This document shows, piece by piece, positions 8,769 to 25,164 of a stretch of DNA of 35,891 bases. This DNA is from an uncultured bacterium. GTDB lineage: Bacteria; Cyanobacteriota; Vampirovibrionia; Gastranaerophilales; Gastranaerophilaceae. Each line of letters begins with the position of its first letter. Within the stretch, counting starts at the first letter, position 1. The stretch spans positions 1-35,891 of the forward strand of contig OMSS01000006.1 of the NCBI GenBank assembly GCA_900313795.1. Direction: 5' to 3'. The notes below the pieces were generated by a model. That model did no database searches, had not been told where the DNA came from, and saw only the letters and a list, made by a program, of their open reading frames with translations. Both the position numbers and the translations under genes were made by a program.

Positions 8769-9599
8769 ATGGCAATTAGAAAAATAAATCCTACATCTCC
8801 GGGTCAAAGAGGTATGACCAAAAGTGATTTTGCTGAAATAACAACAAACAAACCTGAAAAATCATTATTGAAAGACCTCAGAAAGACTGCAGGCAGAAAC
8901 AATACAGGTAGAATTACATGCCGTCATAAAGGTGGCGGACATAAAAGAGCATACCGTGTAATAGATTTTAAACGTGAAAAGTTCGGTATTCCGGCAGTTG
9001 TTAAGACTATCGAATACGATCCGAACAGAAACGTAAGAATTTCACTCGTTGTATACGCAGACGGTGAAAAGAGATACATTTTGACACCGCACGGATTGAA
9101 CGTAGGTGACACAATCGTATCAGGAAAAGACGCAGACATCTTGACAGGAAACGCACTTCCTTTGGAAATGATTCCGTTAGGTACAATGGTTCACTGTGTA
9201 GAACTTGAACCCGGAAAAGGCGGAAAGATGGTCAGAACAGCAGGTGGTGCTGCTCAATTAATGGCAAAAGAAGGCAATTACGTAACTTTGAAGATGGCAA
9301 GTTCAGAAATGAGAATGGTCAGAAAAGAATGCTTGGCAACAGTCGGTGTTCTTGGAAATGCTGAATTCAAGAATATGAAAATCGGTAAAGCAGGCCGTAC
9401 TCGTTACTTGGGTGTAAGACCCACAGTCAGAGGTGTTACAATGAACCCCTGTGATCACCCTCACGGTGGTGGTGAAGGTAAAACAGGTCCCGGCGGAAAT
9501 CCTAAGACACCTTGGGGTAAACCGGCACTCGGCATCAAGACGAGAAACAAGAAGAAGGCTTCTGGCAAGTTGATTGTCAGAGAAAGAAAACGCGGATAA
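8769..9599 (+). CDS. rplB: 50S ribosomal protein L2
   Basis: A 276-residue uL2, required for subunit joining and peptidyl transfer. Seen: [21 protein letters not shown] at the N terminus (split here as two adjoining motifs), the SH3-like middle, and the C-terminal loop with [17 protein letters not shown], which includes the conserved histidine close to the active centre, then [18 protein letters not shown]. Normal length, six bases after rplW. Confidence 0.98.
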
Positions 9600-9610
9600 G
9601 GAGAATATAA

Positions 9611-9892
9611 ATGGCTCGTTCACTTAAAAAAGGACCTTTTGTTCAACCTGCGCTTCAATCAAAAATCGAAAAAATGAATGCTGCCGGTGAAAAGAAAGTT
9701 GTAAAGACATGGTCCAGAGCATCAATGATAATTCCGGAAATGTTGGGACACACAATTGCCGTACACAACGGTAAGACACACGTTCCCGTATATGTGACAG
9801 AACAAATGGTAGGACACAGACTCGGTGAATTTGCTCCGACCAGATTATTCAGAGGTCACGCCGGTTCAGATAAGACGGCAAAGAGGGGTTAA
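9611..9892 (+). CDS. rpsS: 30S ribosomal protein S19
   Basis: A 93-residue uS19 of the 30S head. Begins [15 protein letters not shown], has [24 protein letters not shown], and ends [14 protein letters not shown] plus a basic tail. A GGAG site precedes the ATG. Its stop is only two bases before rplV. Confidence 0.97.
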
Positions 9893-9894
9893 TC

Positions 9895-10230
9895 ATGGAA
9901 GCTAAATCAATACAAAGAAATATCGGAATGCCCGCACGTAAATTACGTAGAGTAATTAACGTAGTAAGAGGCAAATCTGTAACAGAAGCAGTTAAAATCT
10001 TGAAATTCATGCCCTACTTTGCGGCAAGAATGGTCGAAAAGAATTTGACGGCAGCAGTTGCAAACGCAGCTGAGAAGTCAGGTGTTACAGCAGATCAATT
10101 AAAAATATCTGAAATTTACGCTGACGAAAGTACGACACTCAAGAGAGGAAAGCCGAGAGCGCAAGGAAGAATTTACAAACGCTTAAGACGTTCTTCACAC
10201 TTGACAGTAAAAGTATCGGATAATAAGTAG
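9895..10230 (+). CDS. rplV: 50S ribosomal protein L22
   Basis: A 111-residue uL22, whose beta hairpin lines the peptide tunnel and is a site of macrolide resistance changes. Seen: [30 protein letters not shown], and the hairpin and tail [23 protein letters not shown]. The order S19-L22-S3 is the standard one. Confidence 0.96.
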
Positions 10231-10241
10231 GAGATAACACG

Positions 10242-10991
10242 ATGGGACAAAAGACACACCCAACCGGATTTAGAGTAGGCGTTATCCAACCTTGGTCAAG
10301 CACTTGGTACGCTAAAAAAGGTGATTATCCGGAATTTTTAGTCGAAGATGCAAAAATCAGAAAATTTATTAAGAAGAAATTATATACAGCAGGCGTTGCA
10401 AAAATTCTTATCGCAAGAAAAGCAACAAATGTAGTAGTTACAGTAGCGACAGCTAAACCCGGTGTAGTAGTCGGCAGAGGCGGTCAAGGTATCGATGAAC
10501 TCAGAACATCAGTTTCAGCACTCATCGGAAAACCTGTAACAATTGATGTCGTTGAAGTTGCAAGAATTGATGCAGATGCACAATTAGCAGCAGAAAACGT
10601 AGCACTCCAACTCGAAAAACGTATTGCATTCAGAAGAGCAATGAAACAAGTAATGCAAAGAACGATGAGATCAGGCGTACAAGGTATCAAAGTTATGGTA
10701 TCAGGACGTTTGGGTGGTGCAGAAATTGCAAGAAGTGAATGGGCAAAAGAAGGAAGAATTCCGCTTCAAACACTCAGAGCAGATGTCGATTACGGATTTG
10801 CAGAAGCAGATACGATGATGGGCAAAATCGGTGTTAAAGTTTGGGTTTTCAAAGGTGACTTAATGCCCGGCGAAAAAGCAGACGCAAACATCAAAACTAA
10901 AAAGTCAACAGGTTCACGCAATGGCGAAGACAGACCTATTGGCAGAAGAAGAAAGAAAGCAGCACCGCAAACTGAAGAAGTTAGCGAATAG
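10242..10991 (+). CDS. rpsC: 30S ribosomal protein S3
   Basis: A 249-residue uS3, part of the mRNA entry tunnel. Begins [18 protein letters not shown], carries the KH domain with [14 protein letters not shown], and the C-terminal domain with MKVWVFKGD-like sequence ([16 protein letters not shown]). The tail after residue 215 is basic and then acidic and probably disordered, which accounts for a length somewhat above E. coli S3. Confidence 0.97.
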
Positions 10992-11021
10992 TAAAAAGAA
11001 AATCAGGAGCGAAAAACAACT

Positions 11022-11426
11022 ATGTTAATGCCCAAGAAAACGAAATATCGTAAAAGAATGAAAGGCAGAATGACAGGTTCTGAAACAAGAGGAACGGAAC
11101 TTGAATTCGGTCAATACGGTCTGCAAGCATGCGAACCGGCATGGATTACAAGCAGACAAATAGAAGCGGCAAGACGTGCTATGACAAGAGAAATCAAAAG
11201 AGGCGGAAACGTCTGGATTAAGATTTTCCCTGACAAACCGATTACGGCGAAACCTGCTGAAACTCGTATGGGTAAAGGTAAAGGTAACCCGGAATATTGG
11301 GTAGCAGTAGTTAAGCCCGGAAGAATTCTCTTTGAAATTGATTATTCTTCAAGAGAAGTTGCAGTTCACGCACTTGAGTTGGCTGCTCAAAAACTTCCTA
11401 TTAAAGTTAAGGTAGTGGAAAAATAA
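11022..11426 (+). CDS. rplP: 50S ribosomal protein L16
   Basis: A 134-residue uL16 that contacts the A-site tRNA region. Begins [11 protein letters not shown], matching the MLxPKR start of the family, which decides for ATG 11022 over ATG 11028; AGGAG lies 12 bases upstream. Also seen are [46 protein letters not shown] and the end of the domain around [12 protein letters not shown]. Confidence 0.97.
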
Positions 11427-11437
11427 GGTAGCGAACA

Positions 11438-11626
11438 ATGAAATTAGAAGAAATGCGCGAAAAAACGGTTGATGAACTTAAAGCAGCAGTAGTTGATTGC
11501 AAAAAGCAATTACTCGACTTAAGAGTTCAAAAATCGTTGAATAAACTCGAAAATCCCGCTCAAATCGGTAAGATAAAGAACGAAATCGCTCAAATCAAAA
11601 CCGTAATCAGAGAAAAAGCGGAATAG
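11438..11626 (+). CDS. rpmC: 50S ribosomal protein L29
   Basis: A 62-residue uL29, a two-helix protein near the tunnel exit. Typical sequence: [52 protein letters not shown], in the usual L16-L29-S17 order. Confidence 0.95.
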
Positions 11627-11654
11627 TTCAGAAAAAACAGAAGAGGTCTATAAA

Positions 11655-11900
11655 ATGCCTAAAAAGGAAAAACAAGGTACAGTTGTTAGCAACAAATGCG
11701 ACAAAACAGTTGTAGTAAAAGTTGCAGAATACAACCAACACCCGAAATATAAGAAAATCATCGAAACGACAAAACATTACAAAGCTCACGATGCAGAAAA
11801 TACATGCAAAGAAGGCGATATAGTTAGAATCGTTGAGACAAAACCGATTTCAGCAGACAAACGTTGGACAGTTGCTGAAGTTGTAGAAAAAGCGAAATAG
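11655..11900 (+). CDS. rpsQ: 30S ribosomal protein S17
   Basis: An 81-residue uS17 of the OB-fold type that binds 16S rRNA in the 30S body. Seen: [35 protein letters not shown] and the [20 protein letters not shown] segment that is most conserved. AGAGG precedes the start. Confidence 0.96.
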
Positions 11901-11930
11901 GCAATTTTTGCTAAATAAAGGATAAGTAAA

Positions 11931-12299
11931 ATGATACAACAGGAAACAAGATTACAAGTTGCGGACAATACAGGTGCAAAGGAACTTCTTTGCATCAGAG
12001 TATTGGGCAGTTCAAATAAGAAATTCGCTTATGTTGGCGATGTAATCATTGCTGCAGTTAAAGATGCAACTCCTAACATGACAGTTAAAAAGTCAGACGT
12101 AGTTAGAGCAGTTGTTGTAAGAACTAAGCATGATATCAAACGTGCAGACGGATCAGTCATTAGATTTGACGAAAACGCTGCAGTTATCATCAACAAGGAC
12201 GGTAACCCCAGAGGAACTCGTGTTTTCGGACCGGTTGCTCGTGAGCTCAGAGAAAAGAATTTCATGAAAATCATTTCTCTTGCGCCGGAAGTTATTTAG
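11931..12299 (+). CDS. rplN: 50S ribosomal protein L14
   Basis: A 122-residue uL14, part of the intersubunit bridge and target of silencing factor RsfS in many bacteria. Begins [26 protein letters not shown]; also has [44 protein letters not shown] split across the core, and ends SLAPEVI. Exact family length. Confidence 0.98.
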
Positions 12300-21953: not shown

Positions 21954-23567
21954 ATGAAAAAAATCAATGCAAATTACCTCAAAGGTAATATTTACGGCGG
22001 TATCACGGCTGGCGTAATCGCTTTGCCGTTGGCACTTGCTTTCGGGGTCGCAAGCGGAATGGGTGCAGCAGCAGGGCTTTACGGGGCAATTTTCGTTTGC
22101 CTGTTCGCATCGCTTTTTGGCGGTACAAAAACCCAAATTTCTGGTCCAACAGGTCCTATGACGGTCGTTGTCGCCTCGGTTATTGCACTTTACCCCAACA
22201 ACCCCAAAATTATCTGCATGACAATCTGTTTGGCTGGTATTTTTCAAATCATTCTCGGTTTGATTAAGGTTGGCGATTTGATTAAATACGTTCCGTATCC
22301 GGTTATTTCGGGCTTTATGTCGGGTGTCGGTGCAATTATTGTGCTTTTGCAAATCAATCCGCTTTTCGGGCATGATGCTTACGGAAATGTTTTGCAAACT
22401 GTGAAAAGTTATTTCCATATCTTGCAAAACGTCAACCCACAATGCCTTATTTTGGGCATTTTGACCTTGTTGATTGTTTATTTTACCCCGAAAAAAATAG
22501 GAAAAATTATCCCTTCTTCTCTTTTGGCATTGATTGTGGCAACCGTTGTTGCGGTCGTTTGCAAGTTTAATGTCCCTGTAATTGGCGAAATTCCAACAGG
22601 TTTGCCCCATTTTCAACTTGGTTTGATTTCTATAAAAGAATTTTATGCAATCGTCCCTGTCGCTTTGACACTGGCGGTTTTAGGCTCGATTGACTCACTT
22701 TTGACATCTCTCGTTGCCGACTCGATGACAAGAACAAAACATAACAGTAACAAGGAACTCATCGGGCAAGGGCTTGGAAATGCCGTAGCGGGCATGTTTG
22801 GCGGAATTGCCGGTGCCGGTGCAACAATGAGAACCGCCGTAAATATCAAATCTGGCGGCACGGACAGACTTTCGGGTGTTGTCCACTGTATTTTGCTTGC
22901 AGTAATTTTGATTTTCCTTGCACCTGTTGCTTCGAAAATCCCTCTTTGTGTACTTTCTGCCATATTAATCAAGGTCGGATTTGATATTATCGACTACAAG
23001 TTTTTATCTATCGCAAAAAGCGTTCCCCGTAAGGAATTTGCCGTTATGGGAATTGTATTTTTCTTGACAGTTTTCTATGATTTGATTTTTGCCGTTGCAG
23101 TCGGTATTGTACTTGCCTCAATCCTTTTTGCTGCAAGTGTTTCCGCCTCAACAAAAATTTCGTCTGTCAAAATTGACGAAATTGACGACGTCAACGACGA
23201 TATTTTTGACGACGAAAGATACAAAAAACTTATCTCTTTCATCAGAATCGACGGTGCATTCTTCTTTGGTTCGTCAGCGTGCGTTCTTAACCAAATCGAA
23301 AAAAATTCACAAGGGGTTAAATGCGTCGTACTTTATTGCAAGCGTGTTGTCACGATTGACGTTTCGGCAATTTTTGTTCTCGAGGAAATCATTGAACGTT
23401 TCGAAAGCCATGGTGTCAAGGTCATCTTGGTCATGAAGGATTGGCAAATGGTCGATAAGATTTTGCACGCTGGGCTTGCAAAAATTTTGACCGCCGATAA
23501 TTTCGCTTTTAGCAAGGAAACCGCCTTGATTAAGGCAAAACGTATGGTTCGCCATTACTTGAAATAA
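21954..23567 (+). CDS. SulP family anion transporter with STAS domain
   Basis: A 537-residue inner membrane transporter. The transmembrane part (about residues 10-395) has GNIYGGITAGVIALPLALAFGVASG (split), the QISGPTGPMTVVVASVIAL motif near residue 62, and GSIDSLLTSLVADSMT, typical of SulP/SLC26 proteins such as bicarbonate transporter BicA and sulfate carriers. An Asp-rich linker follows, then a cytoplasmic STAS domain (about 422-530) with TIDVSAIFVLEEI. Substrate (bicarbonate, sulfate or other) cannot be decided; no carbonic anhydrase or sulfate gene is next to it. AAGGA precedes the ATG. Divergent from recF, single-gene unit with its own terminator. Confidence 0.93.
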   Translation: MKKINANYLKGNIYGGITAGVIALPLALAFGVASGMGAAAGLYGAIFVCLFASLFGGTKTQISGPTGPMTVVVASVIALYPNNPKIICMTICLAGIFQIILGLIKVGDLIKYVPYPVISGFMSGVGAIIVLLQINPLFGHDAYGNVLQTVKSYFHILQNVNPQCLILGILTLLIVYFTPKKIGKIIPSSLLALIVATVVAVVCKFNVPVIGEIPTGLPHFQLGLISIKEFYAIVPVALTLAVLGSIDSLLTSLVADSMTRTKHNSNKELIGQGLGNAVAGMFGGIAGAGATMRTAVNIKSGGTDRLSGVVHCILLAVILIFLAPVASKIPLCVLSAILIKVGFDIIDYKFLSIAKSVPRKEFAVMGIVFFLTVFYDLIFAVAVGIVLASILFAASVSASTKISSVKIDEIDDVNDDIFDDERYKKLISFIRIDGAFFFGSSACVLNQIEKNSQGVKCVVLYCKRVVTIDVSAIFVLEEIIERFESHGVKVILVMKDWQMVDKILHAGLAKILTADNFAFSKETALIKAKRMVRHYLK

Positions 23568-23611: not shown

Positions 23612-23722
23612 GTTTCTCGTAATGACAATAAACTCTAAATCATTCTCTGTTGTTACGAACGAAAAAATTGCAGGTTGGGTTTTAACCCAACAATGTCACG
23701 GCATTAATCCATAAAAAAAGGT

Positions 23723-23749
23723 AAAAAAAAGAGACTTTTGCAAGTCCCC
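23723..23749 (-). terminator. orphan Rho-independent terminator on the minus strand
   Basis: Read on the minus strand: GGGGACTT (23749-23742), GCAA tetraloop, AAGTCTCT (23737-23730) pairing over all eight positions with two G-U pairs, then a run of eight T. No coding gene on the minus strand leads into it. Confidence 0.7.
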
Positions 23750-23864
23750 CGAAAGCTGTTATGCTTCCTCGTGTGTAAGTGAAAGGTTTAGTGTGTATGG
23801 TATGTGTGTGTGTGAATAAAAAATCTCGTTAAAAAATGAACCTCTTTTAATAACCTCTCTATAT
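23723..23864 (-). ncRNA. candidate small RNA, CA-rich
   Basis: A terminator that works only on the minus strand has no gene upstream of it, so an unannotated transcript is likely. A possible promoter on the minus strand is TTGAAA (23897-23892) and TATACT (23876-23871), 15 bases apart, which would start RNA near 23864. The RNA would be about 140 bases, with a middle of CACACACACACATACC and ACACAC repeats that should be single-stranded, then GAGGAAGC and the terminator hairpin. No convincing ORF lies in it. The start is uncertain; the transcript could begin further right. Confidence 0.4.
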
Positions 23865-23883
23865 ATATAAAGTATATATAGAG
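23857..23883. other. long AT-rich hairpin
   Basis: CTCTATATATA (23857-23867) and TATATATAGAG (23873-23883) form a perfect 11-base stem with a five-base loop, extendable by two more pairs. No T run on either side. It overlaps the putative -10 of the small RNA candidate. Confidence 0.6.
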
Positions 23884-23995
23884 GGTGTGAATTTCAAGAA
23901 AAAGGTTTTTTAAAAGTGAAATTTTTTAAAACTCAATAATGACAAAGGTTAGAAGGGTAAAATTCATATTTACAAAAGTTAATATTTGTTTTAAA

Positions 23996-24118: not shown

Positions 24119-24200
24119 TGTTGGGTTAAAACCCAATCAATAATTTGGCAAATGTTTTCAAAGATTTTTCACCACTTTGTGGTTCAGAAAGACGATAAGG

Positions 24201-24282: not shown

Positions 24283-25164
24283 ATGAAGATTTTTGGCAGA
24301 AACATTACGGCAGAGAACATCAGAATTTTAATTCAAAGAATGATATTTTTGGCGATAGGGGCATTTATTGCGGCATTTTCACTCGAGTGTCTTTTGATAC
24401 CGAATGAAATCGTTGACGGTGGGGTCATTGGTATATCGATGATGACGTCTTATAAGACGGGGTTGCCGTTGGGGTATGTTATTATTGCGTTAAATTTTCC
24501 ATTCATTTTGATGGCATTGAAAAAATTGGGCAAGATGTTTGTCTTTTTGACGTTTTTTGCGACGGTAATGTTAGCGGTTGCGACGGAAGTTGTGCCGAAT
24601 TGTTTGCATCATAAAGAGTTGCACAATCCGTTTTTGGCGTGTATTTTTGGTGGAATTGCACTTGGTATTGGCGTTGGAACGATTTTGAGAAACCATGGTT
24701 CAACCGATGGCACGGAAATGGTTGCGGTATCTTTTGCCAGAAAGACACCGTTTTCGGTTGGTGAAATAATTATGTTTTTTAATCTGTTCATTTTCGGTGC
24801 GGCGGGATTTGTTTATAAAAACCCCGAAAGTGCCTTGTACTCGATAGTTACATACTATATTACGTTTAAAGTAATTGATATGGTGCTTGAAGGTTTGAAC
24901 GAATCGAAGTCGATTTTTATTATTTCTGATGAGTGGGAAAAAGTCGGCACGGATATTATGTCGATGATGGATACGAGTGTCACTTATATTGATGCCGAGG
25001 GTGGATATTCAGGACGGAAAAAGAGAATTGTCTACTGCGTAATTTCGAGACTTGAGATTGCAAAGATAAAATCGTTGACGAAGGAAATTGACCCGAAGGC
25101 GTTCATTGCGATTGAAAATGTCCACGAAGTCGAGGGCGTTCGGGTTAATAAAAAACATTTTTAG
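24283..25164 (+). CDS. YitT family membrane protein
   Basis: A 293-residue protein of the YitT family (two DUF161 halves plus a C-terminal DUF2179). Five or so membrane segments lie between residues 15 and 200, with the family motifs LIPNEIVDGGVIGISMM near residue 38, GGIALGIGVGTILRNHGSTDGTEM (split), and SALYSIVTYYITFKVIDMVLEG near 180 (split). The soluble tail has SKSIFIISDEWEKVGTDIM and the GGYSGRKKRIVYCVISR motif of DUF2179. Transport substrate is not established for the family. Start has GAGGAG upstream. It converges on the methyltransferase gene with only eight bases between stops. Confidence 0.93.
   Translation: MKIFGRNITAENIRILIQRMIFLAIGAFIAAFSLECLLIPNEIVDGGVIGISMMTSYKTGLPLGYVIIALNFPFILMALKKLGKMFVFLTFFATVMLAVATEVVPNCLHHKELHNPFLACIFGGIALGIGVGTILRNHGSTDGTEMVAVSFARKTPFSVGEIIMFFNLFIFGAAGFVYKNPESALYSIVTYYITFKVIDMVLEGLNESKSIFIISDEWEKVGTDIMSMMDTSVTYIDAEGGYSGRKKRIVYCVISRLEIAKIKSLTKEIDPKAFIAIENVHEVEGVRVNKKHF

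Follow-up and report, generated by a model that had tools for sequence, protein, structure and literature searches.

A small RNA gene lies, almost certainly, on the minus strand of the window (by which we mean the whole 35,891 nt stretch of DNA analysed), and the best reading of the genome comparisons is that it belongs to a previously undescribed sRNA family of the Gastranaerophilaceae, of a kind already known. The fullest explanation, which we hold to be moderately probable, is that of a new family of trans-acting sRNAs, probably controlled by RpaB and acting by short base-pairing through a tract devoid of G. Several features by which an intrinsically terminated intergenic sRNA is recognised were found, namely a promoter and a terminator of its own, no conserved ORF, and preservation in relatives. 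The predicted gene is laid out as a promoter, a G-free CA-rich single-stranded tract, a small hairpin and a terminator made of a 9-bp stem, a GCAA loop and T8, the sequence read on the minus strand over 23723-23898 being TTGAAATT...TATATACTTTATATATATAGAGAGG...TTCACACACACACATACCATACACACTAAACCTTTCACTTACACACGAGGAAGCATAACAGCTTTCGGGGGACTTGCAAAAGTCTCTTTTTTTT. Coordinates are reported in Table 1; the 5′ end of the sRNA was set from the promoter and is uncertain by several nt, and the 3′ end is the T run.

Table 1. Position of the predicted sRNA, of its parts and of the flanking genes in the window.
Feature	Position	Strand	Basis
Predicted small RNA, about 144 nt	23723..23866	minus	promoter/terminator conservation across the family
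Intrinsic terminator: 9-bp stem, GCAA loop, T8 run	23723..23750	minus	terminator scan, fold, covariation
Terminator stem GGGGGACTT-GCAA-AAGTCTCTT	23729-23750	minus	
Eight-T run	23723-23730	minus	
Small hairpin GGAAGC-AUAACA-GCUUUC	23751..23768	minus	fold, genus and family alignments
Part of the genus-invariant stretch, CACACTAAACCTTTCACTTACACACGAGGAAGC	23763..23795	minus	five genus genomes
G-free CA/CU-rich tract, 54 nt, mostly single-stranded	23771..23824	minus	composition and predicted accessibility
Promoter block TACTTTATATATATA (-10 region)	23860..23874	minus	near-invariant in 94 distinct promoters
TTGAAA (23892-23897), 15-nt spacer, TATACT (23871-23876)	23871-23897	minus	
Promoter block CTTGAAATT (GCAATT in other genera), 14-15 nt before TACTTT	23890..23898	minus	conservation
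HLR1-like box (reverse complement), 14/16, about 95-112 nt upstream of TACTTT	23969..23986	minus	
SulP/BicA-like transporter gene, one flank of the sRNA	21954-23567	plus	
YitT-family protein gene, other flank of the sRNA	24283-25164	plus	

A first-pass annotation of this DNA had placed the neighbouring genes on the plus strand on both sides, and had noticed a TTGAAA-15-TATACT pair upstream; both statements proved correct. A promoter consensus is nevertheless expected by chance in such DNA: a scan with spacers of 16-18 nt, which leaves out the TTGAAA/TATACT pair with its spacer of 15, gave 8 sites against 9.0 in shuffled sequences. Conservation must therefore carry the argument. GCAATT (in this genus TTGAAATT or CTGAAATT) followed by TACTTTATATATAT is shared by 94 distinct promoters, and the distance from TACTTTATATATATA to TTGAAATT/GCAATT is 14 nt in 83 of 86 members and 15 nt in 3. 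The TACTTTATATATATA block, with at most 1 mismatch, occurs only 3 times in the genome to which the window belongs. From promoter to T run, the sRNA measures 95 to 206 nt in 91 relatives, with a median of 142. No conserved start codon or ORF was found, and of 92 members just 7 contain a closed ORF of at least 10 codons. Among 67 loci, 40 have an upstream gene that runs on the opposite strand. The neighbouring genes group into many clusters, and tandem copies at one locus (L105) each have a promoter of their own. The idea of an independent RNA, put forward at first pass, is thus supported by the conserved promoter, the opposite-strand upstream genes and the tandem copies.

Some further observations were made around the locus. 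A 28-nt inverted repeat (23665-23692 and 24119-24146) brackets the sRNA gene, with a TTGGGTTTTAACCCAA-like palindrome within each arm. Further away, at 8769-12299, an ordinary ribosomal protein operon of the S10/spc type was recognised from the succession L2, S19, S3, L14. The promoter block of the sRNA was also found before short unknown proteins of sequence MAENEYNHFEGVV... and MSNFSTGNLLATVQKK... (L013, L016, L002/L163, L014, L015), and the two sequences of this type that were tried gave no Pfam match. Across the family, the commonest neighbour of the sRNA is type I glutamine synthetase (glnA, TIGR00653), with 11 neighbour entries. In several loci (L047, L055, L079, L099, L100 and others) this gene stands divergently beside one copy of the sRNA gene, its start lying 354 to 420 nt upstream of the sRNA core in 5 measured cases, an adjacency that hints at a link of the sRNA with nitrogen status.

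The terminator scan returned the minus strand only, which bears out the earlier remark that the GCAA hairpin and its eight T are well formed on that strand alone; 2 of the T pair within the terminator stem. A segment of 146 nt folds at -27 kcal/mol, compared to -13.7 in shuffles (z = -4.4). The 5′ side of the small hairpin falls in a near-invariant sequence, ACACGAGGAA, with which the G-free tract ends throughout the family. In an alignment of 86 distinct relatives, 97.4% of the cells of 15 base pairs were paired, all 8 pairs of the main terminator helix showed compensatory changes on both sides, and the covariation score was 0.717, versus 0.25 in shuffled rows and no more than 0.23 after sliding the partner, numbers that are biased towards the tested structure, since the alignment was fitted to it. 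RNAalifold, making its own prediction on the same 86-row alignment, recovered the same helices. The upstream hairpin (GGAAU/AUUCC) is less variable than the terminator helix. A diverged second copy, in which ACACGGGGAA replaces ACACGAGGAA, was seen near a normal copy at L074:5665-5747; it has no recognisable promoter, and is possibly a decaying duplicate.

By DNA search, the element was present in 5/5 genomes of the genus. The surrounding sequence differs in each of them, the hairpin stems and T8 are kept, and the core, ACACACTAAACCTTTCACTTACACACGAGGAAGCA, is invariant over 36 nt in all five. Two covariance models were used, R1 built from the five genus members, and R2 from 102 members. R1 matched 167 of the 191 genomes searched in the family, which represent 37 of its 41 genera, and R2 matched 257 of about 265 Gastranaerophilaceae genomes. 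In a phylum-wide draw, R2 matched 127 family genomes out of 130 (a total read off a listing in which misses are ordered by kinship), versus 0 out of 162 others. A covariance search of this kind had been suggested at first pass as a check on the RNA, which came through it with both its core and its terminator pairs kept. The number of copies per genome ranges from 1 to 6. When 84,980 named species were scanned with a pattern, at least 114 stretches were found; among the matches listed, most bore the title of a Candidatus Gastranaerophilales, Melainabacteria or Cyanobacteria MAG, and the remainder were “uncultured bacterium” or “Bacterium” MAGs and one Brachyspira, which we took as mislabelled. 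The predicted sRNA is a near-universal marker of a lineage common in the gut, and is specific to this family. The same pattern gave no match in a collection of viral contigs, and a mobile phage origin was rejected on this ground. Four weak R2 matches (E values from 1e-4 to 4e-3) were also obtained in sister families f5 and f7 (G194, G196, G201, G204), and are possibly remote homologues of this RNA.

Over the gathering threshold of Rfam 15, nothing was found in the window, and only neighbouring tRNAs in 20 relatives; at a permissive threshold, the window gave sub-threshold matches only. In the literature, chiefly freely readable papers, we found no sRNA described for the Gastranaerophilaceae. 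The absence of an Rfam match supports the first-pass view that the RNA was undescribed.

The CACACA/ACACAC run that had first drawn attention sits inside the 54-nt G-free run, and no other G-free run in the window that reaches 40 nt is as rich in C. In 91 members, G makes up 0.1% of the 40 nt preceding CGAGGAA, and the G-free run has a median length of 53 nt and a minimum of 34. The mean unpaired probability predicted for the tract is 0.85, compared to 0.71 in shuffled leaders. The run had been described as unstructured, and it is indeed mostly open. Nevertheless, the tract is not wholly unstructured, because in the window copy AACCUUUC, within it, is predicted to pair with GAGAGGUU of the 5′ leader. 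The modules of the tract, CACACUAACC, ACUUAC, CUACC, CACAC and CUAACC, come in an order that differs between genera.

Among known RNAs, Yfr1, from the same phylum, is comparable in that it too is small, intergenic and carried almost throughout its clade, with an invariant C/A-rich single-stranded stretch before the terminator hairpin (PMC2190773). Yfr1 is 54 to 69 nt long, and has a 5′ stem-loop and an ultraconserved unpaired motif, ACUCCUCACAC (PMC2190773). This motif was found within 1 mismatch in 0 of 102 members and at 2 mismatches in 2 members (best matches, 2 to 4 mismatches), and the lengths given above for the Gastranaerophilaceae RNA are well outside those of Yfr1. The tract also differs from that of Yfr1 in its greater length, its lack of G and the additional conserved hairpin after it. 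Of the two hairpins that flank the stretch in Yfr1, the 3′ terminator has its counterpart; a consistent hairpin ahead of the tract was not seen, and a hairpin stands between tract and terminator. Membership of Yfr1 was rejected, as the defining motif and the length both fail.

How the RNA acts was approached through its tract. A base-pairing mode has, in our judgement, slightly better than even chances. The sRNA would act in trans, by means of short C-rich seeds in the tract (UAACCUU or ACCUUUC type) pairing with purine-rich sequences, for example the ribosome-binding sites of a number of mRNAs. The 3′ hairpins would maintain its stability and keep the tract open; this mode of action is less certain than the transcriptional control discussed below. 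Unstructured C-rich seeds are known from sRNAs with C-rich motifs in other bacteria, for instance those of the RsaE type. The likeness lies in the capacity of such seeds to pair with purine-rich ribosome-binding sites; the differences are that no UCCC-type motif was seen here, and that complementarity to start regions is not general. Over 472 start regions, complementarity of sRNA 7-mers was overall at the level of shuffles, and a general anti-Shine-Dalgarno action was rejected on this ground. A weak excess was found for ACCTTTC (5 versus 1.7), and also for CCTTTCA. In a search for a long antisense target in the genus, the only match with zero mismatch was the sRNA gene itself, and the remainder equalled the control with the reversed pattern.

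These empty target searches speak for another mode, in which base-pairing is not needed and a single-strand RNA-binding protein (of KH, RRM, S1 or cold-shock type) would dock on the G-free tract together with the invariant ACACGAGGAA hairpin, the RNA binding or sequestering it. G is almost wholly excluded from a stretch of median length 53 nt, module order nevertheless varies between genera, and ACACGAGGAA is nearly invariant, as would suit a protein ligand. The 36 genus-invariant nt, however, exceed what composition alone would require, and no candidate protein was found. We regard protein binding as possible but rather unlikely. Base-pairing is favoured over it because of the letter-for-letter conservation within the genus.

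Two more specific ligands can be considered. A CsrA sponge, similar to CsrB or RsmZ, would use the conserved GAGGA as binding site, and ACACGAGGAA resembles the CsrA consensus in part. Yet the conserved core holds a single GGA, and of the 9 genomes examined, all of which carry the sRNA, just 2 gave a CsrA. A decoy for Rho would agree with the composition of the tract, C-rich, G-poor and unstructured as in the type that Rho binds, but none of 9 genomes gave a Rho above the curated cut-off (best score 67.5 bits versus 509), and the weak matches look like paralogues of the ATP-synthase/FliI type. With CsrA missing in 7 of 9 genomes, Rho in 9 of 9, and the sRNA present in all, both readings fail, the sponge being highly improbable and the decoy still more so, barring a divergent Rho. 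Equally negligible is the proposal that a terminator and a promoter met by chance in low-complexity AT-rich intergenic DNA, or that the element is the 3′ remnant of a neighbouring transcript: the promoter consensus taken alone is indeed at chance level, but conservation across the family with compensatory changes, absence from 162 other genomes, and neighbours that differ between loci and frequently run on the other strand all argue against it.

The base-pairing RNA that we favour would be produced under a regulator known from photosynthetic relatives. There, the HLR1 direct repeat KTTACAWW-N2-KTTACAWW is the site of RpaB, which activates from about -66 to -45 relative to the transcription start (PMC13421787). 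In most members, WWTGTAAM-N2-WWTGTAAM, the reverse complement of HLR1, is found upstream of the sRNA promoter. At least 14 of 16 positions are matched in 61% of the 94 promoters (exactly in 19), compared to 1.8% of shuffles, these promoters of related sequences being non-independent observations; among random genomic pieces of 160 nt, 2.5% reach 14/16. The spacer of 2 is specific, with 57 boxes versus at most 13 for other spacers. In most genera the box starts at a fixed place, 54 to 57 nt before TACTTT, which would be roughly -69 to -49 with respect to predicted starts. Of 11 genomes tested, 9 encode an RpaB orthologue above the curated NCBIfam cut-off, G002 and G003 of the window's genus among them, versus only 1 of 14 control genomes. 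A 2013 study reported RpaA and RpaB from Melainabacteria, together with the sensor NblS, and remarked that their function may be another one there (PMC3787301). The arrangement thus resembles that of RpaB-controlled genes, with an HLR1 direct repeat before the promoter and RpaB in the family; it departs from photosynthetic RpaB regulons in that the hosts are without photosynthesis, and the target gene is a lineage-specific sRNA (PMC13421787). At the family level, RpaB or its paralogue RpaA likely controls transcription of the sRNA through these upstream boxes, most often placed where RpaB activates in Synechocystis. Such a link, if true, would be new for non-photosynthetic cyanobacteria.

For the window copy, the case for control by RpaB or RpaA is evenly balanced. 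The candidate control element lies outside the segment delimited at first pass. A box is present in 5/5 members of the genus, with 14 to 15 matches out of 16, at -110 to -113 from TACTTT. Compared with the other boxes of the family, it is a weaker match and sits about 55 nt further upstream, beyond the interval from which activation has been reported. RpaB was not found in the window genome, which is 84% complete, and the only OmpR-type regulator found there is RpaA-like and below the RpaB cut-off.

Taking these elements together, it is a toss-up whether a clade-defining sRNA belongs to the RpaB output of cyanobacteria that do not photosynthesise, a retained redox/light regulator driving a G-less multi-target RNA and a set of small, lineage-specific proteins whose genes carry the same promoter. 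HLR1 boxes before the sRNA and about ten genes per genome would be concrete candidate outputs, and make the role of RpaA, RpaB and NblS in Melainabacteria testable.

The exact HLR1 pattern was found 47 times in four genomes, versus 6 times for the reversed pattern, and many of these exact boxes lie 70 to 100 nt before the start codon of a lineage-specific protein. Boxes of the HLR1 type precede about ten genes per family genome (L200-L229), mostly encoding small lineage-specific proteins. Together, these genes are candidates for an RpaB regulon of cyanobacteria without photosynthesis. At L201, L220, L221 and L225, the box is accompanied by the same GCAATT-TACTTTATATA promoter as in the sRNA. 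Finally, the proteins behind the boxes at L209, L215, L218 and L226 have in common a short N-terminal motif (...VSFKG/INFKG/VRFGD/ISFGG), possibly a localisation signal.
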